DNA of 64,000 bases from Leptobrachium leishanense (taxonomy: Eukaryota; Chordata; Amphibia; Anura; Megophryidae). The position numbers and the translations under genes were made by a program. The notes beneath the pieces are model-generated. The model made no database searches. It was given only the letters and a program-made list of their open reading frames with translations, and was not told the origin of the DNA. Shown here piece by piece: positions 5,802 to 58,521 of the stretch; position 1 is the stretch's first letter; each line of letters begins with the position of its first letter. Where the stretch lies: contig CM019068.1 of NCBI GenBank assembly GCA_009667805.1, positions 9,674,182 through 9,738,181 of the forward strand, in the 5' to 3' direction.

Positions 5802-7414
<1,613 letters not shown>

Positions 7415-22170: not shown

Positions 22171-24443
22171 ATGAAAAAAGTATTCAAGGGGCGTGTTTTT
22201 GGCAAGGCCGGTAGAGCTAGGGGGAACTTTACCGGCCACCCAGGACCAGGTACCAAACACGGCCCAACCCTTCGACTCCCACTGCCCCGCAAACGCAAGG
22301 CAGTGAAGCGCCGTATTACAACACGGGATTCTTCCCCTCGCGTACCCGCGGTAGAGGCTTCCGTGGCCCCCGGGGGTTCTTCAATTCCCGTCGCCCACCA
22401 GGTAAGACACCATTTGCGCTCGCAGACTTTACCACGGGTGGGGGGGCGCATAGCGTGTTTTCTTGCCAATTGGCAAACCCTGACCTCGGACCCCTGGGTC
22501 CTACAAACAGTCACAGGCTTCCACCTGGACTTCGAAGCCGTTCCGTCACAGATGGCCCTTCCTACGCCCCTCCGATTCTCCTCAGAGTGCTCCACGATGG
22601 TAGACGAGGAGGTGCGGAGTCTGGCTCGGAAGGGGGCGATAGAACGAGTTCAGTCACACAAACTGGGGTTTGTAAGCAATTTATTCCTGGTGGCCAAGAA
22701 AGGCGGGGGCTCAAGACCCGTCATAAATCTAAAGGAACTAAACTCCTTCATAGTGTATCGTCATTTCAAAATGGAGGGCATGAAGGATCTCCCTCCCCTT
22801 CTCCTGCTGGGGGATTGGCTAGCAAAGGTGGATCTAAAGGACGCCTATCTATCCGTCCCCGTGACGACCGAACACAGAGACTTCCTGCAGTTTTATTGGC
22901 AGGGGGAGCTCTGGCGTTTCTCCAGTCTTCCCTTCGGGCTCTCCTCCGCACCTTGGTGCTTCACCAAACTGCTGAGGCCGGTGATGGCGAATTTGCGAGA
23001 ACGAAGTGTTCGCCTCATCGTGTACCTAGACGACATTCTGCTTCTGTCATCCACGAAAGAGTTGCTTTCTCTGCACTTGCAGTGGACCCTCTCCCTCCTG
23101 CAGGGGCTGGGTTTCGTGGTGAATGCGGAGAAATCCATTCTTCAACCAACCTTGCGGCTGGAATTCTTGGGCCTAATAGTGGATTCAACATCCATGCGGC
23201 TCACTCGTCCAGCCGACAAGATTTCCACAATAGAACGGGAGGCACGCTCTCTCCTAAGACACGATCCTTCTTCCCTGAGGGCTCTCGCTCGCATGGTGGG
23301 CCTCCTCTCGGCCACCAGGTTAACGATACCCCCCGCCCCCCTGCATTATCGGGCCCTCCAACGCCTGATGGCCCGTTTCCTCCGGGAAGGGGTGCCTTAC
23401 ACAGGGATGATCTCCCTCTCGGACGAAGCTCGCCGGGATCTCGCGTGGTGGACGACGGACCTCCGGTCTTGGAACGGGAAAGCGATCCTTCCGGCCCCTC
23501 CCTGCCTCACGATAGAGTCGGATGCTTGCCGCTCCGGTTGGGGAGCTCGCTGCGGCTCTCTGGAGACAGGGGGCGGTTGGTCGAAGGAGGAGACCCTCCT
23601 CCACATCAATTGCCTGGAACTGCTTGCAGGCTTGTTTTCAATCCAGTGCTTCACCAAGGGACTACGGGATTGCACAATCCTCCTTCGCATGGACAATTTC
23701 CCGGCCGTTCGCAACATCAACGCCCTGGGGGGGTCCCAGGTCCCCCATGCTCACACTGCTAGCTCAACGGTTTTGGGCACATTGCTTCACCTCGGGGCTC
23801 GCGGTTCATGCACAGTTCCTCCCAGGTCTCGACAATGTGGTAGCGGATTGGAACTCCAGATACACGCTGGATTCGGGCGATTGGAGGCTGCTACCCGCAA
23901 TCTTCGCTCGTTTATCGCGTCTCTGGGGTCCGTTAACGACCGATCTGTTCGCCTCGCGTCTGAATCGCCAGCTTCCGAGGTTTTACAGCTGGCGTCCGGA
24001 CCCCGAGGCGCGAGCAACGGATGCATTCCTACAACCTTGGTCCCGGGGACGGCTTTACGCCTTTCGCCATGGTGGCTCGCACCCTGGCCAGGGTCCGCTC
24101 ACAATCGGCGACCCTGGTCTTGGTGGCGCCCCTCTGGCGGAGCCAATCTTGGTTTCCGGCCCTCTTAGAGATGGCCATAGACTGTCCGAGGGTGTTGCCT
24201 TGCCCCCCGGATCTCATCACAGATCCGGAAGGCAGACCCCACCCCCTTATCACGTCTCACTGTCCGTTGACTGCATGGTTGGTGTCCGGGGACCCGGCTT
24301 TGTTGTTGGTGTTTCGGAACGCACTGACGCCTTGCTCCAACGCGCATGGGCCCCCGGTACCCGAGCGGCCTACGGCACTGCCTGGTCCCGGTGGATTCGC
24401 TGGTGTGTGGATGGGGGTCTGGATTCCCTTTCAGCCCCTGTGA
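22171..24443 (+). pseudogene. DIRS reverse transcriptase-RNase H region
   Basis: One long frame (22171-24168) has RT motifs, including RPVINLKELN, FGLSSAPWCFTKLL and the catalytic YLDD at 23023-23034, followed by RNase H residues in IESDACRSGWG and LELLAG. The conserved reading leaves this frame near 23.74 kb. It continues in another frame with DNVVADWNSR and DLFASRLNRQLPRFYSWRPD, then shifts again near 24.06 kb (LVAPLWRSQSWFPALLEMA). These segments belong to the RNase H and methyltransferase-like part of DIRS pol. There are at least two frameshifts. Confidence 0.85.
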
Positions 24444-25205
24444 ATGCCGTGCTGGATTTCATCACAGACCTCTTCGAGCGGGGATTGGCATACCGTACGG
24501 TTAATTTGTTTCGCTCGGCGATTTCGGCAGGCCACCTCGGATTCCAGGGTGTCCCGGCCGGACATCATCCCCTGGTATGTAGGTTGTTGCGTGCCATTCG
24601 CTTATCGCGTCCCCCGTTATTCTTCCACATGGGACGTCTCCGTGGTCCTTAAACTTTCTCACGGCGTGACCGGATAATGATGGCCTGTCGTTACGCCGTC
24701 TGCAAAATTGTTGATGTTGTTTTGCTTGCTCTCAAACGCGTCAGCGACGTTCGCGCGCTGGATTTTGGGGCGCGTTCCTTTCTGCACGATGGTGTACGTT
24801 TTGACGTCTCGCGACGTACAAAAACGTCCATTACCTCAGTCTTCTATCCTATGTTAGCTGATCGCCCGCAGCTTTGCCCGGTTCGCTGCCTGCGCGCTTA
24901 CGAAACACGCACGGCTGCTTGGCGTCCTATGGACATTTCGCCTTTATTCCTCTCCTATGTGATTCCCCATCGCCCGGTGTCATCCACCTCGCTAGCCCGA
25001 TGGGTGATGGCATCGGCCGGTGTTGATGTCTCCACGTTTGGTGCGCATTCTACGCGCAGTGCCATGGCTTCCTCAGCGGTGCTGTCAGGCTGCCGGTTGG
25101 AGGATCTCATGAGGGCGGCGGATTGGTCCAGGGAAAAAATAAAAAAAATAAAATAAAAAAAAAAAATAGACCTTCCGAACGTTCTATTTGAAGCCTGTCG
25201 ATCAT
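24320..25205 (+). pseudogene. DIRS tyrosine recombinase, interrupted
   Basis: The N-terminal core-binding part (RAWAPGTRAAYGTAWSRW, YRTVNLFRSAIS) is in one frame to about 24620. The catalytic part is in another, with arginine at 24752-24754 (SDVRALD) and the HxxR motif at 25046-25057 (GAHSTRSAMAS). An A-rich insertion at 25134-25167 then breaks the frame. The expected tyrosine follows at 25185-25187 in FRTFY. This class of recombinase would insert the circular DNA, so the copy is dead as read. Confidence 0.88.
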
Positions 25206-34349: not shown

Positions 34350-34945
34350 ACCCCAAATATATGGAAGAGGCCACAAAAAAGACACCCACAAACCTTGAAT
34401 ATATGGAGGAGCCCCTAAAAACACACCCTGAATATATGGAGGAGCCCCTAAAAACACACCCTGAATATATGGAGGAGCCCCTAAAAACACACCCTGAATA
34501 TATGGAGGAGCCCCTAAAAACACACCCGCACACCCTGAATATATGGAGGAACCCCTAAAAACACACCCACACACCCTGAATATATGGAGGAGCCCCTAAA
34601 AAGACACCCACACACCCTGAATATATGGAGGAGCCCCTAAAAAGACACCCACACACCCTGAATATATGGAGGAGCCCCTAAAAAGACATCCGCACACCCT
34701 GAATATATGGAGGAGCCCCTAAAACGACACCCACACACCCTGAATATATGGAGGAGCCCCTAAAAAGACATCCGCACACCCTGAATATATGGAGGAACCC
34801 CTAAAAAGACACCCTGAATATATGGAGGAACCCCTAAAAACACACCCGCACACCCTGAATATATGGAGGAGCCCCTAAAAAGACACCCGCACACCCTGAA
34901 TATATGGAGGAGCCCCTAAAAACACACCCGCACACCCTGAATATA
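34350..34945 (+). repeat. Minisatellite with GAATATATGGAGGAGCCCC units
   Basis: About sixteen units of roughly 23-38 bp contain TGAATATATGGAGGAGCCCC, TAAAAA and optional CACACCC blocks. The same unit in opposite orientation forms an array at 54.49-54.96 kb. Peptides such as GVFLGAPPYIQ in translations are repeat artefacts. Confidence 0.95.
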
Positions 34946-35170
34946 CAGGGGGAGGGGATTAAGCCCACAATTAGGCAGTAACCTCCATGAACCTTCAGGC
35001 CTCACTGACACCGAGTGCTGTAAATATCCTCACACTGCGGAGCCGGGCAGGGAGATATAAAACTATATAAAAAGTAAAGTCACACCAAGCGAAGGCATTA
35101 ATATCAAAACAAAGACATTCTGAGCTTCCTGCCGGGAAAAGCAATCAAACTGGAAAACAGAATAAAACTG

Positions 35171-36463
35171 ACACGCCCCCTGCCTGTGTATAACACACTA
35201 TACTGACACGCCCCCTGCCTGCGTATAACACACACTATACTGACACGCCCCCTGCCTGCGTATAACACACACTATACTGACACGCCCCCTGCCTGTGTAT
35301 AACACACTATACTGACACGCCCCCTGCCTGCGTATAACACACACTATACTGACACGCCCCCTGCCTGCGTATAACACACACTATACTGACACGCCCCCTG
35401 CCTGTGTATAACACACTATACTGACACGCCCCCTGCCTGCGTATAACACACACTATACTGACACGCCCCCTGCCTGTGTATAACACACACTATACTGACA
35501 CGCCCCCTGCCTGCGTATAACACACTATACTGACACGCCCCCTGCCTGCGTATAACACACTATACTGACACGCCCCCTGCCTGCGTATAACACACTATAC
35601 TGACACGCCCCCTGCCTGCGTATAACACACACAATACTGACACGCCCCCTGCCTGCGTATAACACACACTATACTGACACGCCCCCTGCCTGCGTATAAC
35701 ACACAATACTGACACGCCCCCTGCCTGCGTATAACACACACTATACTGACACGCCCCCTGCCTGCGTATAACACACACTATACTGACACGCCCCCTGCCT
35801 GTGTATAACACACACTATACTGACACGCCCCCTGCCTGTGTATAACACACACAATACTGACACGCCCCCTGCCTGCGTATAACACACACTATACTGACAC
35901 GCCCCCTGCCTGTGTATAACACACACTATACTGACACGCCCCCTGCCTGCGTATAACACACACTATACTGACACGCCCCCTGCCTGCGTATAACACACAC
36001 TATACTGACACGCCCCCTGCCTGCGTATAACACACACTATACTGACACGCCCCCTGCCTGCGTATAACACACACACTATACTGACACGCCCCCTGCCTGC
36101 GTATAACACACACACTATACTGACACGCCCCCTGCCTATGTATAACACACACTATACTGACACGCCCCCTGCCTGCGTATAACACACACTATACTGACAC
36201 GCCCCCTGCCTGTGTATAACACACACTATACTGACACGCCCCCTGCCTGCGTATAACACACACTATACTGACACGCCCCCTGCCTGCGTATAACACACAC
36301 TATACTGACACGCCCCCTGCCTGTGTATAACACACACTATACTGACACGCCCCCTGCCTGTGTATAACACACACTATACTGACACGCCCCCTGCCTGTGT
36401 ATAACACACACTATACTGACACGCCCCCTGCCTGTGTATAACACACACTATACTGACACAGTA
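35171..36463. repeat. 37-bp minisatellite, about 35 units
   Basis: Units contain TGACACGCCCCCTGCCTG followed by CGTATAACACAC or TGTATAACACAC and ACTATAC. They differ in the number of AC repeats and at the CGTAT/TGTAT position. The array ends just before the predicted PDCD4 first exon, so it probably lies in the first intron. Confidence 0.96.
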
Positions 36464-36479
36464 GGGAATCAGGGCGCAC

Positions 36480-36960
36480 ACAGATCGAAGCCTCCAGCCG
36501 GGTCCGTTGCACAGTGTGATTCTTTCAGTCAGGAACCAAGAGATTCTGCAGCAGCTGAGTTGATGTCTCCTGACAGTCAGCTCGCCGTTGCCCGGGTCTC
36601 ACCCTGCTCGCCGTGCAGCTCCCCGCAGGCCCAGCTCCTCTCAGCCTCCCGCTCCCTCTGTTATTGTTTTGATCCTGCTTTTTCCTGTCACCTCCTTCCT
36701 CAGGTCTGCCCAGTAACAGCGTCACGTGACAGAGGCGGCAACTCTCTCCATTGGCCGAGAAGAAAGGGGTGCGCGAGGGAAATAACCATTGGCAAAGGGG
36801 ATGGGTGGGGTTCAGGGAGTAGAAGGCGGGGAGAGGCGCGTGGGATGTGACAAGGCGGGATTTCATGCGTCGCGTGACAGCCATGGGCGGCCATTTCATG
36901 TACCTGTCAATAGGACCCGAGTCACGTGACGTGCAGCGCGTGGCCACTTCTGGTTTCCTG
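36480..36960 (-). promoter_or_regulatory. PDCD4: Predicted PDCD4 promoter and non-coding first exon
   Basis: A GC-rich, CpG-rich stretch lies upstream of the start exon. In the PDCD4 direction it has CCAAT motifs at about 36746-36752 and 36785-36792, two TCACGTGA palindromes (about 36721-36728 and 36921-36928), and a candidate first-exon donor CAGG|GTGAGA at 36603/36602. The start is likely between 36603 and 36745. No TATA box is evident. All of this is inference from position and motifs. Confidence 0.5.
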
Positions 36961-37069: not shown

Positions 37070-37549
37070 CTCACTCACCTCACCCCAATAACCCCCTCAC
37101 AACATCTCACACGCCAGTAACCCTCTAGACAGCCACCAACCAATAATGCAACATCACCAACCCCAATATACGACCCTCACACAGGCACCTCTTCCCACCC
37201 CCAATAACCCCCTCACAACATCCTCACACCCCAATAACCCCCTCACACAACATCTCCACACTCCCAATAACCCCCTCACAGCACCTCTCCACCCCCAATA
37301 ACCCACCCCTCACGCATCACCACCCCAATAACCCCCTCACCAGCACCTCTCACCCCCAAAATAACCCCCACAGCACCTCTCACCCCCATAAACCCCTCAC
37401 AGCACCTCTCACCCCAATAACCCCCTCACAGCACCTCTCACCCCAATAACCCCCTCACAGCACCTCTCACCCCATAACCCCTCACAGCACCTCTCACCCC
37501 CAAAATAACCCGCCTCACAACACCTCTCACCCCAATAACCCCCTCACAG
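37070..37549. repeat. CCCCAATAA minisatellite, left part
   Basis: Units of about 28 bp contain CACCCCAATAACCCCCTCAC and AGCACCTCT. The array continues on the far side of the provirus at 46614, so it was split by the insertion. Confidence 0.95.
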
Positions 37550-38224
37550 TGTAGGCGGACAAAAACAGATTCACTTTTCAAGACGGCGCCGACCGGGCAC
37601 AAGTAAGGATTGTCAGAACACGAGTCTCTTCAGAAAGGCAAACTTTATTGTGTCGTCACACAAGTGCCCACACAGGATTGAATCACAAAGAGTGAGCCCC
37701 CCTTTTCACCCGTGCAAGGATCTTATACCCAAAAATACGTAATTAGGTACATCCCAGTTAGCCCACCTCCCAATGACACTTTATTCCACCCCACGTGGGT
37801 TAATACCTCCCTTTGGCTAATACAAAGACATTCCATTAATTGGCTGTACATTGGCAAACTTTGTGTTAGTTTCAGTAAATCATAATTAATTGCTCTTACT
37901 GTTCCGGGGCGCCCTCCTCCCTTGCGCCTACACTCACTTGTTACAGATGGCACCTGGCCTAATCTCTACTCCTTTGTCTTTCTGCGGGCCCCAACGACCT
38001 TGGGGATCTACTTCGCTTTTCTCCTCCGTGCCAGGAACAGCAGAGATCTTTCATAAAGCTTTAATTGCTTTTCTGCTAATCTAAACGCATTCCTAAATTT
38101 CTACGTATACCTCATTCTAGTTTCAGCTACAAACCTGTCAAGTTATATACAAGTGAACCAATATTCTGAACAAGATGGCCGCCTGTGTACAATGGCGGCC
38201 ATCTTCCAGCCTATTTCCACTTCA
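37550..38224 (-). repeat. 3' LTR of the provirus
   Basis: In virus sense it starts TGAAGTGG and ends GCCTACA. It has a TATA-like TATAAG (37722-37727 on the + strand as CTTATA) and the polyadenylation signal AATAAA (37644-37649 as TTTATT). Near its U3 start is a perfect 12-bp inverted repeat AAGATGGCCGCC (38172-38183 and 38194-38205) resembling YY1 sites. It is oriented toward PDCD4. Confidence 0.95.
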
Positions 38225-38236
38225 TTCCCCCTTGGC
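38225..38236 (-). other. Polypurine tract
   Basis: In virus sense AAGGGGGAA directly precedes the 3' LTR, the expected primer site for plus-strand DNA. Confidence 0.8.
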
Positions 38237-38440
38237 TCAAGTGTCAGGATCTTTTCCTGGCACTTGTAGCCATTACACTCACTATTCTGAAACTCCTTGT
38301 ACTGGGGGGGGGGGTTTCTTTCACTGGGAACATACCCTGTGGGATTATCAGTGGTATCTTCTGTGTTTGTGTAGGTGTCAGTGCTGTTTTGCACAGTGGC
38401 CATAAACATAGCCCTATGCGGTATATCAGTATCCCTATGA

Positions 38441-40088
38441 TCAAAAGATCACCACTATCATGAGTATCATGGATCCAATCCGTGAGATAAATCTCAAGAT
38501 GGAACCAAACCATTCTCCCATTGCTCCAAACCCACGGAGCGGATTCCAGCCTTCGGCAGCAATCCTCCTGGCTATACCCTGCAACTGTGCTACCTTCTCT
38601 TGGTGATCTTGAATTACCTGGTAATAATCTGGGACTTCATGTGTAGTGTTCTGATGAAAAGGTGCAACATTCATAGTGCATTGTCATTTCACACAATCCA
38701 TTCAAGGCCGCACTGATCTGCTCAAGCGCCATATCATGTATCATCTGCACCTTTCGTAACTCACGCATTTCCAGATTCAGCAGCTGGATATCCATACTGG
38801 TTCTATTCAGAATCTCATCCATCAAATTGACATAGCTATTCAATCTCCTCATCATCTCTCCTCCCATCCAGTCCATGCTGGCAACCATGTCCATATTCGA
38901 TCCATCTTCGCGAACAACTCTCTCTTTGGTCTTTCAAACACCAGTGGGTACCTAGGGTGTAGTTCTGTGTCTGTGTTTGTGTCTTCCCCCTTAGTCTCTG
39001 GATTGGGACCAGCTTAGCCAAATAACACCATTCCCTATTTGGTGGTACCCATGTGTAACACACCCTTCACAGCATACCTGGTACCCTCCTTTCACTATAA
39101 ATGGTGATGAATGTAGTGTTCCCTTTGATATCTCTATCGCAAGGTGTCTCAGCCGTCTCATCATATCCACTGCACCCTGCCTCCCATTGGTCACATTCCC
39201 AATCACCGCCTCTTGGTCTCTAGTGAGTTGCCTGCATCGTATATATAAATAATTCGCCTTTTGTCCTGTTTTGAATATGTAAATGTATGATGTCCAGTTG
39301 AACTGACTTGAGTTACATAACCCACCCTCGTTATTTGTTTCTTTATCTGGTCCTAGTTGAAAACACCATTCTGGTGGATACACTGGTCCTATTATGGGGT
39401 ACCCGGGACTGAATGATTCTGTCTTTTCCCTTGGTGCATCGACAGCATGTATTGTGACATTCCCTGATACAAACATACTCAAATTCATTGGAACAGAGGC
39501 AAATGGTATATGAATTGTCTCTGGGTGCAGTCTACTACACACCCAGCATGCGGTTTGCCCAGACTTTTTAGCATAGTCATATTTGAATTGCACAAGTAAA
39601 TGTCCTCTTGGGTTGGTTCCAGATAGCGCCTCTCGTTTTTGTCTCCACATGGTACGGTTCTCCATCACCGGGTGCGTACCATTCCAGATATGGGAAATAT
39701 TCACTTTCCCCACATTGCCCGTACAATTAGTGCCTGCTCCACGCGAGAGTCCATAAATCAAATTAGCAAGATATAAAATCAGCACCACAAATGCCCCGAA
39801 TGTCAGAATTCCTTGGGCAATTCTTTTCACAGTCACATAAACCCAATCCCTCCCCACCGGAATTTCAAAAGTAAAAAACATTTCTGGATGATCAAGGGTG
39901 GGGGCCGGGCCCCTAAAAAGCACCCTGTGGGTATCCCCCGTTGGCGGGTGGTCAGGACCTGTGCCCATCAAAACACCCACTTGTTGATCCTCTGTATTAT
40001 CTGGGTTAGGATCATTTAGGTGCTCATGGCTGTGGTCTTTGTCAGCTTCAGCCTCAGCGGGTTGGTCTCGTTGGTAACGACCTTCCAT
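38441..40088 (-). pseudogene. Retroviral env, frameshifted
   Basis: The first frame (38991-40088, 365 residues) starts near the end of pol. It has a long hydrophilic leader and a hydrophobic signal or anchor at about residues 91-113, then a surface region with many N-glycosylation sites and a CWVC motif of the type that links SU and TM. The rest lies in other frames (38836-39063, 38637-38894, 38441-38674). It includes a heptad-rich helix, a C-x7-CC motif and a final hydrophobic segment. At least three frame changes mean no intact envelope is encoded. Confidence 0.85.
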
Positions 40089-40660
40089 GCTGGTTCAGGA
40101 CTGGCTGCAGCTGCTTTCACTCTGGAGTGATGTATCCACGGGACCACCTCGGCAACCTTTACTGCTGTGGGGGTTGATAACAGGACAAGATAAGGACCCC
40201 TCCATTTTGGGCCTAGTGGATCATTTTTCCACTCTTTTACCCATACTGAGTCACCCGGACAATACTTATGCAGTGAAGGATACAGAAAATGCGGTATATT
40301 ATTCCCCACCCAAGTATTTAATTTCTGCATTGATTTACCCAGCATTACTACCTGATCATTTAGTTTAGTTTCTCCCAATGCCCGAAGGTCCCCCCTTAGT
40401 CCATTAATTAGAGGGTTGGCCGTCCAAACATAAGTTCGTACGGACTTAGCTTCAATTGGGGGGTTGGTCTGCACCTAATGTGCAAAAGGACTATCGGCAG
40501 CAAGTCCAACCAGCCTAGTGACGTCTCTTGGCACAGTTTGGACATCAAAGTCTTTAGGGTACGGTTCATTCTTTCAACTTTTCCCGAACTTTGGGGCCTG
40601 TAGGCGGTATTAGCTTCCAGGTGATGCCCAGTAGCCGGGCAAGTTGTTGCAAACAGTTCT
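40016..40660 (-). pseudogene. Integrase C-terminal part
   Basis: The fragment starts within the catalytic core. The region around the third acidic residue is recognisable (GKVERMNRTLK, about 40570-40602 on the + strand) and is followed, after a frameshift near 40.42 kb, by the C-terminal domain with WRGPYLVLLSTPTAVKV. The zinc-binding N-terminus and the first two catalytic aspartates are absent, their place taken by the OGFR-like segment. It overlaps the env start. Confidence 0.85.
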
Positions 40661-41280
40661 GGATACTTTTGGGAAATAGTATCGCCATGCGAAAAATAAC
40701 AAATCTTGTCTGTCTTGTGAATCTCTTACTGCTGGTATGAAAAAGTTCATTGCACTTTTCTTCATTCTTGGCAGTCTGTTCTTGATAAGGATCTCCTTGA
40801 GGAAGAACCTCACCAGTGGGACTTGATATTCTTCTGCTCCCAATTCTCCCAGACTGTGCAGTATTCGTGGGATTCGTAGATTATTGTGAGGATTGATTGT
40901 CAAATTTTCAAAACGTGACGCGAAATTTTCTGCTCGTTCAACTTCGGTTATTTCTTTGTCTTCCTCCTCCCCATTAGTTTTACGCCGAAGAATTTCAGCA
41001 TCATCTTGTAGGCTCTGCGCAGTCTTTGCTGAACTTCTGAGGTGTTAACCATTAGGCGTGTCTCTTGCGGATTTAGGGAGTAGAGTAGAAATTTCGGCCT
41101 TGTGTCCGATGGTTGGGAAAAGCCATTGAATATAATCATGATTGAGTTCCAACAGTTCATAATCATCTTGCCATTTGTGCAGTATTTTGTTCAATGAACT
41201 CGCCGTGGGGTTCAAACTTTTTCAAATTCATATAGAACTCGTAATTTGGCATGGAAGGTTGAGGTTCTTGCTTGCAGATC
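40660..41280 (-). pseudogene. Captured OGFR-like conserved region inside pol
   Basis: In virus sense and without introns, this stretch encodes segments of the opioid growth factor receptor N-terminal conserved region: MPNYEFYMNLKKFEPHGEF, then NHDYIQWLFP (41114-41143), VQQRLRRAYKMMLKFFGVKL, and NNLRIPRILHSLGELG with PLVRFFLKEIL, ending FFAWRYYFP. The order matches OGFR. Three frameshifts (near 41185, 41105 and 40970) break it. It follows RNase H directly and ends where integrase resumes. OGFR in vertebrates binds met-enkephalin and restrains growth; whether the viral copy acted is unknown. Confidence 0.9.
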
Positions 41281-42466
41281 AGTACTTTAGCTTGATCTCT
41301 GTTGGCGGTGGTGGTTTTGCAGCTGCTTTTGCGGCCTGGTCCGCGCGTCTGTTACCTTTTGGAATTTCATCACGGCCTTTTTGGTGGCCACGACAGTGCA
41401 TGATGCTGACAGCACTTGGTTTCCATACTGCTTCCAGGAGGGCCGCGATTTCAGCCGCATATTTGATTTGTTGTCCTGAAGACGTGAGTAGGCCTCTTTC
41501 TTTATAGAGTGCACCATGTGCATGGACTGTCACAAAAGCGTACTTGGAATCTGTGTAGATATTTACCTTTTGCCTTCAGAAATTTCAAGGGCTCTGGTTA
41601 AAGCTGTTATTTCAGCCAATTGTGCAGATGTATGGCCTGGCAGTGGCTTTGCTTCGATGACTTCTTCTGTTGAGACTACTGCATAGCCGGAGACTTTCTT
41701 CCCATCATCCATGTAGCTGCTTCCATCAGTGAATAGCTGTAGATCGTATTTGTCTAGGGGTACGTCTTTCAAATCTGGCCTGCTACTGAACACTTCTTCC
41801 ATAACTTGGAGGCATTCATGATCTGGATCCTCTTCACAGTCAGGCAGTAAAGTAGCAGGGTTTAAGGTAGCGATGAGGTACAAATGAACCCGTGGATTTT
41901 CACACATCATGGCTTGGTACTTCGTCATCCGGCTGTTGCTGAACCAGTAACCTCCTTTGACATCCAGCAGAGCCTTGACAGCGTGGGGCACCTTGACATG
42001 AAGAACCTGTCCAAGGGTCAGCTTGTCTGCTTCTGCTATCAGCATTGCGGTGGCAGCCACTGCTTTCAGGCATGGGGGTAGCCGCAGGCCACAGGGTCGA
42101 GTTGCTTGGAGAGGTAGCCACAGGCCTCAGCCATGAGCCAAAGGTCTGGACCAATACTCCTGTCGCTGTTTGATTATGTTCATGTACGAACAGCTGGAAA
42201 GGCTTGCTGTGATCTGGCAGGCCCAGTGCAGGAGCTTCCATTAGCAGAGTCTTTAATTTCAGGAACGCTGCTGTTTGCTCTTCTTCCCAATGAAAGGGGT
42301 CTAGTTCTCCCCCCTTGGTGGCTTGATAAAGCGGCTTGGCAATATCGGCGAAGTTGGGGATCCACAGGCGGCAGAAGCCTGCAGCTCCCAGGAACTCACG
42401 GACTTGTCTCCTGGTCTTTGGTTGGGGTATGCGGCACACCGCTTTTTCTTTTTGCCCCCAGTGCAC
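41279..42466 (-). pseudogene. RT connection and RNase H region
   Basis: The connection region is in frame 41900-42466 (RREF-type QVREFLGAAGFCRLWIPNF). RNase H is in 41563-42060 with the first catalytic aspartate in LFTDGSS, and its end is in 41279-41533 (MHCRGHQKG). Frameshifts separate these parts. The RNase H end meets the OGFR-like segment at about 41280. Confidence 0.88.
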
Positions 42467-43124
42467 GTTTGGTACCTGTTAACTGGAAGCCCAGATATTT
42501 TACACTGCGTTTACATATTTGTGCTTTCTTTTTAGAAACTCTGTAACCTGCTTGGCTTAGCAGATGTAGCAAGGCTTTTGTGGCGGATAAACAGTCTTTT
42601 TCTGTGGGGGAAGCCAGTAATAAATCATCAACATATTGTAGTAACACTACTTTGTCTGGCTGAGCGTTGAAGGCGAGGAGATCTTGGCTAAGCGCGCACC
42701 CGAAAATCGTGGGCGAATTTTTGAAACCTTGAGGGAGGCGCGTCCACGTCATTTGATGGCGCGCCCCCGTGGTAGACTCTTCCCACTGAAATGCAAAAAG
42801 GGGCTGGCTTGCTGGAGCCAGACGGATGCAAAAAAAAGCGTCTTTTAAATCAAACACTGTGTAATATTTTGTATCTCCGGGAATTAACGCCAGTAAATTG
42901 TATGGATTAGGAACCACAGGGTGTAATGTTACTGTGGCCTCGTTGACAGCTCGTAAATCTTGGACAGGGCGATACTCTTGTGTCCCCTCTTTCAAGACTG
43001 GCAATAGGGGTGTGTTCCATGGTGACACACAGAATTTTAATATGCCGTGATCTTTAAATCTCTGTAAATATATCTGTATATTCTGCTTGGCTTTCTGTGG
43101 GATAAAATATTGTCTTAGAGCCAC
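42396..43124 (-). pseudogene. Reverse transcriptase
   Basis: A 242-residue open frame with the RT fingers and palm. Motifs include FDLKDAFFCIRL, LPQGFKNSPTIF and the catalytic YVDD at 42624-42635. Arrangement and motifs are gammaretrovirus-like. The frame is lost after about 42396. An in-frame TGA at 43152-43154 separates it from the upstream protease remnant. Confidence 0.92.
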
Positions 43125-43151
43125 CGGTGTTGCGCCGGGCTGTGATTCAAC

Positions 43152-43440
43152 TCATCTGGGCGGGTTTTCCTCCGCCCACACCTCAGGAATTCCAAGGAGT
43201 AGTGCGTGCGGATCCGGCGTGGCAGACAGAGTAGGTGCCGTGCGCCATTCTTCCTCCTTTGACATAACTACTGCGATTTTCACAGATTGGGGGTTGTGCG
43301 GGCTGGCTGGGTTATGCTGCCGAGCAAAGCTGCTATCCTCCGGCAGGTCTAATTGAGCGTGACCCCCGGGAAAGAACGTAATTTTGGCTTACAAATTGCA
43401 AAAGATATCCCACCCCAGGAGCTGGGACATTCGGGCATAT
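43152..43440 (-). pseudogene. Protease C-terminal remnant
   Basis: In virus sense the end of a retroviral protease is recognisable (QLLGWDIF) with a stop soon after, then a linker to RT. The catalytic part of protease is missing, because upstream sequence is unrelated AT-rich DNA. Confidence is moderate since the remnant is short. Confidence 0.6.
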
Positions 43441-44128
43441 ACATATACACATTGTATAAACAATATTCTCAGAGATCTTTTCCCGTAGCCCAAAACAGAC
43501 TCTTAATACCACATCCGGAAAAAAAAAAAATCATTCCATTGTCATAAGACCACTCCTAACATCTCATAACAATAAAATAACCATTCCATCAAAAATCAAA
43601 CAAAAACATACCTTTTTTTTAAAAAAACAGTAAAGAAAAACTACTTTTTATTTCTCGAATTATTTTCTTTTAATATTAATTTTCTAACCGTTTCATATAT
43701 TTCAATTTAATTTTAGCTTTGAATAAAACTAAAACTTTCGGAATAATATTAACACAAAATATAAACATATATCTTGCACTCAACAGGCTTCAGACAAATA
43801 TTCTATTGTAACACACATTAAAATTAGCTAAATATAGTAATTCTTTTTTCCTATTCCTCTTTACTTTGAATTCGCTGCACAGATACACAAAGGGTTATTC
43901 TTTCCAGCTATCAGAGAGCAAAGAAAACACACTGACTCCCTCCCCCTCCCCCATTCAAACAGTCTGTCAGAAAGGAGGGGGCCTATACACCAGGGAAGAG
44001 AGGAAAGAGAAAAAAAAAAAAAAAAAACAAGTACGAAGCCCAATCTCACAACCTCTCAGTCATTCCTACTTTTAATTGAACAGTTTAATAGATCAATTAT
44101 AAACACAATCGGACAAAATCAGTCCGAA
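43441..44128 (-). other. Non-coding AT-rich segment in place of capsid, nucleocapsid and protease
   Basis: No retroviral capsid or zinc-knuckle coding is visible in any frame. 43500-43860 is strongly AT-rich. In virus sense a long pyrimidine tract near 43990-44025 is followed by TATAG at 43983-43987, resembling a splice acceptor. The origin is unknown: deletion with filler, or a second acquired sequence. Confidence 0.6.
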
Positions 44129-44800
44129 TCACACACACAAGCCATACAGCACCGCAATCATCTCACTCCGTAAAATATTAATTAATTTATATATGCTCCC
44201 ATCGGGCATCTCAATCTTTTCTGGTGGAGCCTCTCTATCTCCTCCATTCGCTGCGCCCTGCTCTTCTTCCTCAGTCACACAGGACGGAGCAGAGGGAGCT
44301 GACCGAGACACAGCAGCTGCCCGCTCCCCCCTCTCTGCCCGCGCAACCGCGGCACTCAAAACTTTCCTAGCTGCCCTATAACATAATAGATAGGACGGGG
44401 GTAAAACATCACTCTCTTCCGGTTGTTCTACTAACACCTCTCTCTCTCCATTATTTTGGGGGTCCTGCTTCTTATTTCTCCCCGCTATCATTATAAAATA
44501 ACTCTTGTTTTTAATACAATATCTCCATATATCTATATACGGGTACTGTTCAGGATGTCCGTACTGCTCTGTGACTTGGGAATGTACCTTCTGTACCAAC
44601 TCCGGGTCCATTGACCCCTGCTCTGGCCATTCTGGAACTACTAACGGCCATACAACTGTACACATTACTTTTAATTTCTCTTTTTTTAATTCTACACCAT
44701 AGTCATGAGTTTTATATAATGCTTCGAAATTCCGCACCATATTTTCTAGGGGCGTCTCACCCTCCTTCACCTTCTTGGGCTTAGATGACCCGTTACCCAT
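44129..44800 (-). pseudogene. Gag matrix with truncated Gag
   Basis: The ORF starts MGNGSSKPKK, a myristoylation signal. It continues with a matrix-like domain (PEWPEQGSMDPELV, GHPEQYPYIDIW), a PPSY late-domain motif and an acidic tail, then stops without capsid. The start at 44800 is chosen for the myristoylation glycine; the frame extends ten codons upstream. Confidence 0.85.
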
Positions 44801-44830
44801 TATTACTCTTGAAAACAGTACTCTTTGCAA

Positions 44831-45911
44831 TACAGATATATTATTTCAACAACAGTTAAAATCTACAGTCTGATACTTCAGTCAACAATTCATCCGTGTC
44901 TGCAGGCGCTTCCCCCTTCAGTAGCCGTCTGCAGTCGCCTGAGCCGGAAACGTACGTTCGGGGTCAAAACTCGTATTTGCTTCCTCGCGGAGCGAGTAGG
45001 CGCACGTTCACTCACAGCACTCGAGTCAATTCATTCACAACACATACCGTATCAGATGCTTTCATCACATAACAGAACAATAGAACATAGGCACTTCAAC
45101 TCTTTCTAATAGCCGAGGGGTACTCAGTCCCTCCTCTGTGGCTCCTTATACCCCGTAATTTGAACTCTAACTCTTGACTGCTTGTGACTATGTGCACCCC
45201 GTTCTATATCTCTACTGCCGTCTGCAATTCCAATTTGCCTTATGGGTAATCTCACCCACCCGGCACCACTATCTCTGCAGCTACCGCTGGCTCCACTATG
45301 AGCCCTTTTCACTACACGACGTGCACACTAGCACTGACTCAGGCTCTCAGCCCAGTCACAGAAAATCCCTCCTCCTTTCCCTTTTACCCACGTGGCGAAG
45401 CTCTGTTTACAAACACTGACTACTGACTTATGCAACTCCACCTGGTTACCTTCTCCCTCACTTACAGAACTACCCTTTGATTGGCATTCAATTCCCCCGA
45501 ATCCAGACACCCGCTAGCCACTCTGGCTCCTTAGCAATGTCAGTGCTATCAGCGGCGGGCTAGATATGCCAATAGGATGGTGGCCATCGCATCCTCTTAT
45601 CCGTCTATCTCAGTCGGACGTTTCCCTTAGATACCGGTATCTCCTTTAGACATACAAAACATAGAAGACACGTTACCTATCGCCGGCGCTGCTTGCTGTT
45701 TCCTCAGACTCAGTGGTGTCCCAGAGTTCCGCGGTCAGGGGTCCGTTTGGGACGAGACGAGGTCCACTGAACAGAAATCCTGCTTGGCGCCTGCAGATGT
45801 CAGCTCACCTTCAACGGACGCCCAACCATCGGGATTCTCGCACCTGCTGCAGTCAATCTGCCACAGTGTGTTCAGCAGCCGTTACTGTGTGCCCGGAAAG
45901 GGCCCGTATCC
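44831..45911 (-). other. Proviral 5' leader
   Basis: About 1.1 kb between the primer-binding site and gag. It should hold the packaging signal and a splice donor, but I cannot place either with confidence. No ORF here is convincing. Confidence 0.5.
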
Positions 45912-45929
45912 CGGCTCACGAGGCCCCCA
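45912..45929 (-). other. Primer-binding site, proline-tRNA-like
   Basis: In virus sense TGGGGGCCTCGTGAGCCG starts four bases after the LTR. The first seven bases match the proline tRNA end used by many gammaretroviruses, but the rest has extra bases, so the tRNA is uncertain. Confidence 0.5.
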
Positions 45930-45933
45930 AAAA

Positions 45934-46613
45934 TGTAGGCGGACAAAAACAGATTCACTTTCAAGACGGCGCCGGACCGGGCACAAGTAAGGATTGTCAG
46001 AACACGAGTCTCTTCAGGAAAGGCAAACTTTATTGTGTCGTCACACAAGTGCCCACACAGGATTGAATCGCAAAGAGTGAGCCCCCCTTTTCACCCGTGC
46101 AAGGGATCTTATACCCAAAAATACGTAATTAGGTACATCCCAGTTAGCCCACCTCCCAATGACACTTTATTCCACCCCACGTGGGTTAATACCTCCCTTT
46201 GGCTAATACAAAGACATTCCATTAATTGGCTGTACATTGGCAAACTTTGTGTTAGTTTCAGTAAATCATAATTAATTGCTCTTACTGTTCCGGGCTGCGC
46301 CCTCCTCCCTTGCGCCTACACTCACTTGTTACAGATGGCACCTGGCCTAATCTCTACTCCTTTGTCTTTCTGCGGGCCCCAACGACCTTGGAGGATCTAC
46401 TTCGCTTTTCTCCTCCGTGCCAGGAACAGCAGAGATCTTTCATAAAGCTTTAATTGCTTTTCTGCTAATCTAAACGCATTCCTAAATTTCTACGTATACC
46501 TCATTCTAGTTTCAGCTACAAACCTGTCTAGTTATATACAAGTGAACCAATATTCTGAACAAGATGGCCGCCTGTGTACAATGGCGGCCATCTTCCAGCC
46601 TATTTCCACTTCA
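45934..46613 (-). repeat. 5' LTR of the provirus
   Basis: 680 bp and nearly identical to the 3' LTR. TATAAG is at 46108-46113 and AATAAA at 46029-46034 (as complements). It starts TGAAGTGG and ends GCCTACA in virus sense. About ten differences and small indels separate the two LTRs. Confidence 0.95.
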
Positions 46614-49600
46614 ACAGCACCTCTCACCCCCAATAACCCCCTCAGCATCACCAGCCCCAATAACCCCCTCACAGCACCTCTCACCCCCAATAACCCCCTC
46701 ACAGCACCTCTCACCCCCAATAACCCCCTCACAGCACCTTTCACCCCCAATAACCCCTCACAGCACCTCTCACCCCCAATAACCCCTCACAGCACCTCTC
46801 ACCCCCAATAACCCCTCACAGCACCTCTCACCCCCAATAACCCCCTCACAACATCTCACACCCCAATAACCCCCTCACAACATCTCACACCCCAATAACC
46901 CCCTCACGGCATCACACGCCCCAGTAACCCTCTAGGGGCATCACCAACCCCAATAACCCCCTCACAGCACCTCTCACCCCCAATAACCCCCTCACAGCAC
47001 CTCTCACCCCCAATAACCCCCTCAGCATCACACGCCACAATAGCCCCCAACAGCATTTCACACCCCAATAACCCCCTCACAACATCTCACACCCCAATAA
47101 CCCCCTCACGGCATCACACGCCCCAGTAACCCTCTAGGGGCATCACCAACCCCAATAACCCCCTCACAGCACCTCTCACCCCCAATAACCCCCTCACAGC
47201 ACCTCTCACCCCCAATAACCCCCTCACAGCACCTCTCACCCCCAATAACCCCCTCAGCATCACACGCCACAATAGCCCCCAACAGCATTTCACACCCCAA
47301 TAACCCCTCACAACATCTCACACCCCAATAACACCCTCACAGAACCTCACACCCCAATAACCCCCTCACAGCATCTCCCATAACCCCCTCACAGCATTTC
47401 ACACCCCAATAACCCCCTCACAGCATCATTCACACACCCCAATAACCCCCTGACCGCATCTCCCATAACCCCCTCACAGCATTTCACACCCCAATAACCC
47501 CCTCACAGCATCTCTCACCCTCACAGCATTTCACACCCCAATAACCCCCTCACAGCATCTCCCATAACCCCCTCACAGCATCTCACAGCATCTCCCATAA
47601 CCCCCTCACAGCATCTCACATAACCCCCTCACAGCATTTCACACCCCAATAACCCCCTCACAGCATCTTCAATAACCCCCTCACAGCATCTCACATAACC
47701 CCCTCACAGCATCTCACACCCCAATAACCCCCTCACAGCATCTCACCTAACCCCCTCACAGCATTTCACACCCCAATAACCCCCTCACAGCATCTTAAAT
47801 AACCCCCTCACAGCATCTTAAATAACCCCCTCACAGCATCTCACACCCCAATAACCCCCTCACAGCATCTCACACCCCAATAACCCCCTCACAGCATCTC
47901 AACCCCCTCACAGCATCTTAGGCTGGGGTCAGACGAACGCATTTTCACGTTGTCTGTGAAAAAGTGCGTTCGAACGAATGGACGCATTTTTTCACGGAAT
48001 ACGCGATAGCGGTCATACGATGCGCATTTGCATCCGTGATTTTGTACGGATCATCAATAAAACACTTTGTGCATCTGGACGTTATGTTGGCCGTACATTA
48101 GCAGTGTCTGACATCTCCAATTCACGCACACACGCCTCTAGCGGATGCAGCGCACTCTGTACAACCGTACTAGAGGTTTTACGTTCGACAAAATGCGTTC
48201 GTTTTCCACTTGCGTTGCGCAGCCGGACTTTTGTGCGACCGTACTTCGTATATTGGCCGTCATTGCCTGGCACTTGCTGCTACTACGGCCGTGATTAAGT
48301 GCGCCTGCACGCGCGTTCGCACTGCGCTCGTCTGACCCTAGCCTAAAATAACCCCCTCACAGCATCTCACACCCCAATAACCCCCTCACAGCATATCAAC
48401 CCCCTCACAGCACCTTAAATAACCCCTCACAGCATCTCAACCCCCTCACAGCATCTCACACCCCAATAACCCCCTCACAGCATCTCACACCCCAATAACC
48501 CCTCACAGCATCTTAAATAACCCCCTCACAGCATATCAACCCCAATAACCCCCTCACAGCATATCAACCCCAATAACCCCCTCACAGCATATCAACCCCA
48601 ATAACCCCCTCACAGCATCTCACACCCCAATAACCCCCTCACAGCATCTCAAATAACCCTCTCACAGCATCTCACACCCCAATAACCCCCTCACAGCATC
48701 TCAAATAACCCCCTCACAGCATCTCACACCCCAATAACCCCCTCACAGCATCTCAAATAACCCCCTCACAGCATCTCAAATAACCCCCTCACAGCATCTC
48801 ACACCCCAATAACCCCCTCACAGCATCTCACACCCCAATAACCCCTCACAGCATCTCAAATAACCCCCTCACAGCATCTCACACCCCAATAACCCCCTCA
48901 CAGCATCTCAAATAACCCCCTCACAGCATCTCACACCCCAATGACCCCCTCACAGCATCTCAAATAACCCCCTCACAGCATCTCAAATAACCCCCTCACA
49001 GCATCTCACACCCCAATAACCCCCTCACAGCATCTCAAATAACCCCCTCACAGCATCTCAAATAACCCCCTCACAGCATCTCACACCCCAATGACCCCCT
49101 CACAGCATCTCAAATAACCCCCTCACAGCATCTCAAATAACCCCTCACAGCATATCAAATAACCCCTCACAGCATCTCGCACCCCAATAACCCCCTCACA
49201 GCATCTCAAATAACCCCCTCACAGCATCTCACACCCCAATAACCCCTCACAGCATCTCAAATAACCCCCTCACAGCATCTCAAATAACCCCTCACAGCAT
49301 ATCAAATAACCCCCTCACAGCATCTCGCACCCCAATAACCCCCTCACAGCATCTCAAATAACCCCCTCACAGCATCTCACACCCCAATAACCTCACAGCA
49401 TCTCACACCCCAATAACCTCACAGCATCATTCACACACCCAAATAACTCCCTCACAGCATCTCAACCCCCTCACATCATCTCAACCCCCTCACATCATCT
49501 CACACCCCAATAACTCCCTCACAGCATCTCAACCCCCTCACATCATCTCACACCCCAATAACCCCCTCACAGCATTTCACACCCCACTACCCCCTCACAG

Positions 49601-56909: not shown

Positions 56910-58521
<1,612 letters not shown>

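Follow-up and report, generated by a model that had tools for sequence, protein, structure and literature searches.

We describe an endogenous retrovirus (ERV) that carries an OGFR domain inside its pol gene. The window is a 64,000-nucleotide stretch of the genome of the toad Leptobrachium leishanense (assembly GCA_009667805.1, contig CM019068.1, positions 9,674,182 to 9,738,181), and the provirus in it belongs to a family with many copies. We consider it very probable that the OGFR domain of this family was captured once, as a spliced host messenger RNA (mRNA), and that it was placed within Pol between RNase H and integrase.

The initial annotation had located an OGFR conserved region at 40660..41280, and the OGFR-like segment inside pol is genuine. 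Two minus-strand open reading frames (ORFs) match the Pfam family OGFr_N above the gathering cut-off of PF04664 (22 bits): 41166-40948 (E 4.4e-7, 30 bits, profile positions 63-101 of 208) and 40903-40610 (E 1.4e-25, 90.5 bits, profile positions 121-198). In a tblastn comparison, the host OGFR protein P0021 aligned with 41221-40667 over 198 amino acids at 39% identity (E 3.7e-38, 135 bits), with a second match at 41297-41190 (E 2.4e-6). The coordinates were thus right; Pfam matches to RNase H (42060-41279) and to the C-terminal part of integrase lie on either side, and the motifs listed in that annotation, NHDYIQWLFP and PLVRFFLKEIL included, occur in the order given, though across more than one frame. 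The broken reading frame of the window copy might be taken as the mark of a chance similarity or an annotation artefact, but 500 shuffles of the segment (in blocks of two bases) gave a best score of 26.6 bits, far under the 135 bits of the real match, and an unbroken copy elsewhere in the genome matches OGFr_N at E 5.8e-69 (232 bits, profile positions 5-198 of 208). We rejected the chance-match reading, which is practically excluded.

The features of the provirus and its surroundings are as follows, in window positions:
37550..46613, minus strand: provirus of about 9.1 kb, with paired long terminal repeats (LTRs), TG..CA ends and ACAG on each flank
45934..46613, minus strand: 5' LTR (virus sense), by alignment to the 3' LTR
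37550..38224, minus strand: 3' LTR (virus sense), by alignment to the 5' LTR
37546..37549, no strand: left copy of the target-site duplication ACAG, from the flank sequence
46614..46617, no strand: right copy of the target-site duplication ACAG, from the flank sequence
45912..45929, minus strand: primer-binding-site-like stretch adjoining the 5' LTR, read by eye
38225..38235, minus strand: polypurine-tract-like stretch adjoining the 3' LTR, read by eye
44129..44830, minus strand: gag remnant, matrix (Gag_MA, PF01140, E 1.8e-10)
42396..43124, minus strand: reverse transcriptase (RVT_1, E 3.9e-32)
41900..42466, minus strand: reverse transcriptase/RNase H connection (RT_RNaseH_2, E 2e-8)
41563..42060, minus strand: RNase H, first part (PF00075, E 1.3e-6)
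41279..41533, minus strand: RNase H, end (PF00075, E 1.4e-7)
40666..41297, minus strand: captured OGFR domain, frameshifted in the window copy (OGFr_N in two ORFs; tblastn with host OGFR)
40665..40666, minus strand: joint of a 619-bp deletion, by alignment to the integrase-retaining loci L068 and L090, with the same length from L069 and L092
40016..40665, minus strand: integrase remnant with an MLV-type (murine leukaemia virus) C-terminal domain, 97% identical to the L090 integrase over 40665-40400 (MLVIN_C)
38991..40088, minus strand: env-like ORF of 365 amino acids, named by position, with no Pfam match

The virus order is accordingly Gag matrix, reverse transcriptase, RNase H, OGFR-like segment, MLV-type integrase C-terminal domain and env-like ORF. 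In the fragments between gag and reverse transcriptase, read by eye without a profile scan, no capsid was recognised. The target-site duplication is 4 bp long, the length given for ERV1 (PMC4299795, Table 1), and both the matrix (Gag_MA) and the integrase C-terminal domain (MLVIN_C, E 6.9e-19 in 40474-40016 by Pfam) are of MLV type; by these two features we class the window provirus as a class I, gammaretrovirus-like element. The LTR pair differs by 2 substitutions in 674 aligned positions and by 6 indel events of 1-2 bases, and because indels outnumber substitutions in this way, some of the frameshifts in the window may be assembly errors. The provirus is embedded in a tandem array whose repeat units are short, about 29 bp, with array sequence of the same kind on both flanks.

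The segment is widely shared in the genome. A DNA search of the 3.54-Gb assembly with 40660-41280 yielded 3078 first-look candidates, 40 of which were scored. All 40, the window included, match the OGFR segment at 98-100% (38 over 621 bases, 2 over 615). The RNase H-OGFR joint aligns through without a large break in every copy and the OGFR-integrase joint in 38, L044 and L047 holding about 620 extra bases there; in this comparison L009-L015 repeat L002-L008 and so were not counted. The search for shared junctions that the initial annotation had proposed thus turned out in its favour, and neither of the two outcomes that it named as speaking against capture materialised, whether a lack of significant OGFR similarity or other copies lacking the segment along with the poly-A tail and target duplication of a processed pseudogene. 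We accordingly rejected a single late pseudogene insertion into the window copy, since the other 39 scored copies share the segment. The reading frame is open from RNase H through OGFR in 18 copies and open in OGFR minus its first few residues in 7; it is broken in 15, the window copy among them. When an open copy was used as the query of a protein search, 46 proteins were found; 31 are UniRef entries of L. leishanense, and in several of them OGFr is joined to domains of RNase H or integrase. As a separate observation, about 150 bp of the RNase H region (window 41790-41926) is absent from 17 of the 40 copies (L005, L018-L021, L023-L025, L032, L034, L035, L038, L039, L041-L043 and L046), whose joint shows a short overlap; this is a second internal deletion and a possible subfamily marker.

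Relatives of the window provirus retain the intact RNase H-OGFR-integrase architecture. The single protein P0161 contains RNase H, OGFr, the integrase zinc domain, rve and MLVIN_C. A search with the integrase part of P0020 found 49 proteins, and all 15 from L. leishanense carry OGFr, the query itself having been derived from an OGFR-bearing element. With an RNase H-integrase protein of the lizard Anolis as query, 41648 first-look candidates were obtained and 62 loci were scored, with 120 matches. The alignment is gapped between RNase H and integrase at 58 loci and gap-free at 4. Nearly the whole integrase, from query residue ~225-243 on, is present at 43 of the gapped loci (36 stop-free in the integrase match), and six loci have equal open frames of 1439-1455 amino acids on their RNase H and integrase rows. 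We took out the gap sequence for 20 of the 58 loci, several chosen for their odd length, and set the other 38 aside. OGFR is encoded in all 20 gaps, over at least ~105 amino acids in 18 and as a remnant of ~30 amino acids in L078 and L079; 7 of the 20 stretches are open and full-length. Six of these loci (L067-L070, L074 and L075) are stop-free in the RNase H match, the gap and the integrase match, and so P0161, P0160 and six loci present an extra module between RNase H and integrase without a stop, as in a dUTPase-like arrangement.

An OGFR-less sister lineage allows the insertion itself to be read. Three of the four gap-free loci were examined: in L084 and L086 RNase H reads directly into integrase without a stop, and L085 has two stops. 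By eye, the residues flanking the joint are similar in OGFR-positive and OGFR-less elements, so the loss of RNase H or integrase residues at the joint would be a few at most; since the sister lineage joins RNase H directly to integrase, the arrival of OGFR was a clean insertion. An integrase tree was built from 34 rows, the nearest database relatives among them; in it the 13 OGFR-positive rows form one clade (support 99/97) and, together with three OGFR-less toad rows, a larger one (100/99).

The state of the window copy is explained by a separate deletion. Alignment with L068 and L090 shows 619 bp to be missing from the window between 40666 and 40665, and L069 with L092 gives the same length; the missing part covers the OGFR tail, the N-terminal part of integrase and most of its core. 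Because 619 cannot be divided by three, the integrase remnant lies in a different frame from OGFR. The deletion is found in 38 of the 40 scored copies, and the two others, near-identical to them, retain the ~619 bp. Over 41391-40666 L068 shares ~95% identity with the window, after which it continues into integrase. The integrase-retaining state is common to the sister lineage and to more distant OGFR-bearing forms, from which we infer that the loss of integrase came after the capture of OGFR. Judged from their sequences, the integrase-deleted copies are unable to make a whole integrase, and they were likely mobilised in trans by the integrase of intact relatives. Their spread is likely recent, given the near-identical LTRs of the window copy.

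The initial annotation had instead pictured an acute transducing event in which capture of an OGFR-like mRNA cost the virus part of its integrase. The capture of an mRNA stands, in that the viral sequences are intronless and form one clade next to host OGFR; the cost does not, as relatives keep both OGFR and integrase. That the window and 37 other copies join OGFR to an integrase remnant is what a single replacement of the integrase N-terminus would leave. Against such a replacement are the coexistence of OGFR and integrase in relatives that retain RNase H and integrase around the insert, the ~619 bp kept in two near-identical copies, and a sister lineage that shows insertion without loss; because of the relatives, the clean insertion and the separate deletion, acute-transducing replacement is very improbable. 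OGFR as a substitute for integrase was likewise rejected, RNase H, OGFR and integrase occurring together in relatives.

The donor can be sought in the same genome. The host OGFR protein P0021 is matched at 100% over residues 1-31 and 32-62, and the exon structure of the host gene on C12, reconstructed from tandem paralogues, has breaks at about residues 31, 62, 87, 111 and 134 of P0021. Host OGFR exists as a tandem group of paralogues (G000:C12:9486001-9516000, L060-L062). A search with the OGFR N-terminus gave 20 matches at E<=0.001: 6 correspond to host exons, and the other 14 are intronless across the first break. Eight of the intronless loci were examined with ~1.5 kb on each side: RNase H lies upstream in 4, and in 2 of these integrase also lies downstream. 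The best intronless locus, L048, is 64-66% identical to host OGFR. At L050, L055, L057 and L058 the intronless OGFR has no RNase H or integrase match within ~1.5 kb, and these are either plain retrocopies or decayed elements.

The viral copies thus cross the breaks of a split host gene uninterrupted, which bears out the earlier description of an intronless segment in virus sense and gives the family the intronless host coding sequence of an acute transducing retrovirus. By the intronless loci with RNase H upstream, some elements hold almost all of the host coding sequence; in P0039, which lies on the second main branch of the OGFR tree, host-like residues also precede the domain (by eye). The lineage of the window is a trimmed one without the host N-terminal region. 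The OGFR tree, of 57 rows, places the 32 ERV rows in one clade (100/97), and a wider group that unites them with three host proteins of L. leishanense excludes the 22 other vertebrate proteins (98/94); the nearest relatives of the viral OGFRs are the host proteins P0021, P0023 and P0030. The tree is most simply read as a single capture, the donor being a megophryid, and the captured form was most likely a spliced host mRNA. A processed pseudogene inserted by a long interspersed nuclear element (LINE), for which a poly-A tail, a stop codon and a target duplication at the insert were expected, is not supported; no stop or poly-A was seen by eye at the OGFR-integrase joint, which continues in frame in P0039, P0160, P0178 and L068. 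An old LINE insertion could since have lost these marks. Because one genome contains both the donor gene and an OGFR-less sister lineage, capture, trimming and deletion can be read in order.

To ask whether the domain is maintained, as the initial annotation had suggested, the ratio of nonsynonymous to synonymous divergence (dN/dS) was compared. Between C7a and C7b, two intact lineages with synonymous divergence (dS) of ~0.63, dN/dS is 0.11 for OGFR (bootstrap 0.066-0.183), 0.04 for RNase H (0.018-0.072) and 0.04 for integrase (0.023-0.072), and over the 15 pairs of six loci the OGFR values run from 0.05 to 0.21. A wider set drew on 57 loci, of which 2 were unmatched, 25 were left out as short or stop-holding, and 30 were used; the 176 of 435 pairs with dS >0.08 have a median dN/dS of 0.15 (range 0.05-0.89). 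These values indicate purifying selection on the viral OGFR, clear but weaker than that on RNase H and integrase. They bear on the alternative that one provirus received a processed OGFR copy, which has since been carried without function. The intronless state and the 15 broken copies among 40 fit such a history, yet OGFR runs in frame into integrase in P0039 and P0160 with neither stop codon nor poly-A, selection is evident between lineages at the divergence given above, and OGFR has been retained in elements whose OGFRs share only ~50% identity. Passive carriage is, on this evidence, improbable.

Taken together, a model for the history and action of the viral OGFR emerges. A spliced host OGFR mRNA would have been captured once and placed between RNase H and integrase; the 619-bp deletion would have followed, and the deleted subfamily would have spread with integrase from intact relatives. 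The OGFR domain would be made as part of Gag-Pol and, like retroviral dUTPase, reach new cells in the virion. There, in the least certain step, it could act as a decoy of host OGFR and tie up OGFR's partners. Gammaretrovirus-like viruses are thought to need dividing cells, and the biochemical action of OGFR is poorly understood. A decoy might weaken the OGF-OGFR brake at G0/G1, such that the infected cell divides; OGF-OGFr acts on G0/G1 via p21 (PMC2253554). We favour this role, though tentatively, at somewhat less than even chances. Its main rival, in which the OGFR domain partners integrase as its neighbour in Pol and guides the pre-integration complex to the nucleus or chromatin, is a little less probable still, and on its own unlikely. 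The broader proposition, that a permanent, virion-delivered Pol protein resets the cell cycle or steers integrase and that the integrase-less subfamily spread on the enzymes of its relatives, seems to us evenly balanced. In the predicted structure of P0178 the OGFR part has a predicted local distance difference test score (pLDDT) mostly >90 and lies between weakly predicted linkers. A sequence search at E<=1 found no solved OGFR structure, Foldseek with the OGFR fold gave no match in the PDB at E<=0.001, and VIA-align gave middling Z only; with structural matches this weak, no function was read from the fold.

Several observations weigh against this account and are gathered here. The 40 OGFR copies and the 62 RNase H-integrase loci are the best of longer candidate lists. 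Half of the gaps taken out (L071, L072 and L076-L083, 10 of 20) lack some of the OGFR or adjoining integrase sequence, so loss occurs readily. OGFR evolves faster than RNase H and integrase in identical pairs, and single pairs of the wider set reach the dN/dS of 0.89. Among the integrase-deleted copies, where 15 distinct open copies of 21 were counted after 6 identical rows were dropped, shared variants are 6 nonsynonymous and 8 synonymous, too few to show continued selection, and singletons are 13 and 8, respectively. Host and ERV differ by at least 0.70 per synonymous site, near or at saturation, and the capture is therefore undatable.

Elsewhere in the window, tandem arrays occupy ~35117-36590 and 34370-34970, with periods of ~37 bp and ~41 bp. 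On the plus strand, 22171-25156 holds a long reverse transcriptase ORF (RVT_1, E 5.9e-18) and, after it, an ORF of 159 amino acids without a Pfam match, by their look a putative DIRS-like element. Two fragmented Tc1/mariner-like transposons lie at 5992-7046 (minus strand) and 57273-58303 (plus strand); 5995-6549 matches DDE_3, and 57273-57833 matches HTH_Tnp_Tc3_2 and the Sleeping Beauty HTH.

Literature searches, with subscription papers mostly outside their reach, found no earlier report of a retroviral OGFR among the titles and abstract openings listed. L. leishanense is listed with its ERVi set among the threatened species of PMC10435555, in whose main text, as available, neither OGFR nor opioid occurs; nor does either term occur in the available parts of PMC13297096 or PMC8672886. 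Among IMG/VR viral contigs, from which the genome of the window may be excluded, three stretches matched a pattern and none encodes a relative of P0008. An OGFR domain is present in another virus: Marseillevirus LCMAC202, a giant DNA virus, has an OGFR-like protein of 186 residues, matched in BFVD (E 1.6e-6, TM-score 0.78 by target). Vertebrate OGFR and OGFRL1 contain the same OGFr_N domain; the copies described here differ in being intronless and fused to RNase H and integrase.

The uptake of host mRNA is known from acute transducing retroviruses and Rous sarcoma virus, and such capture usually costs a retrovirus some of its own genes (PMC4299795, section 15). The cargo described here differs in being a growth-inhibitor domain that has become part of Pol, and relatives keep the surrounding viral domains. 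In crocodilians, CrocERV29 and CrocERV31 likewise captured host mRNA that is under purifying selection: CrocERV29 carries KIT-ligand between pol and env with no significant viral loss, and in CrocERV31 nectin3 replaces env (PMC4299795). Those cargoes are ORFs outside pol or in the place of env, whereas OGFR is an in-frame module within Pol, one that has persisted through long viral diversification in one host with many frames open. The viral OGFRs may thereby serve as a natural test of OGFR, the residues kept by the virus being those that matter to its action. The closest parallel in arrangement is the dUTPase of non-primate lentiviruses such as equine infectious anaemia virus (EIAV) and feline immunodeficiency virus (FIV), which is likewise an extra pol domain placed between RNase H and integrase, and which proteolysis releases from Gag-Pol (PMC4531489, section 8). 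The lentiviral module is an enzyme; its counterpart in this gammaretrovirus-like family is an OGFR domain that would be released from the polyprotein in a similar manner.
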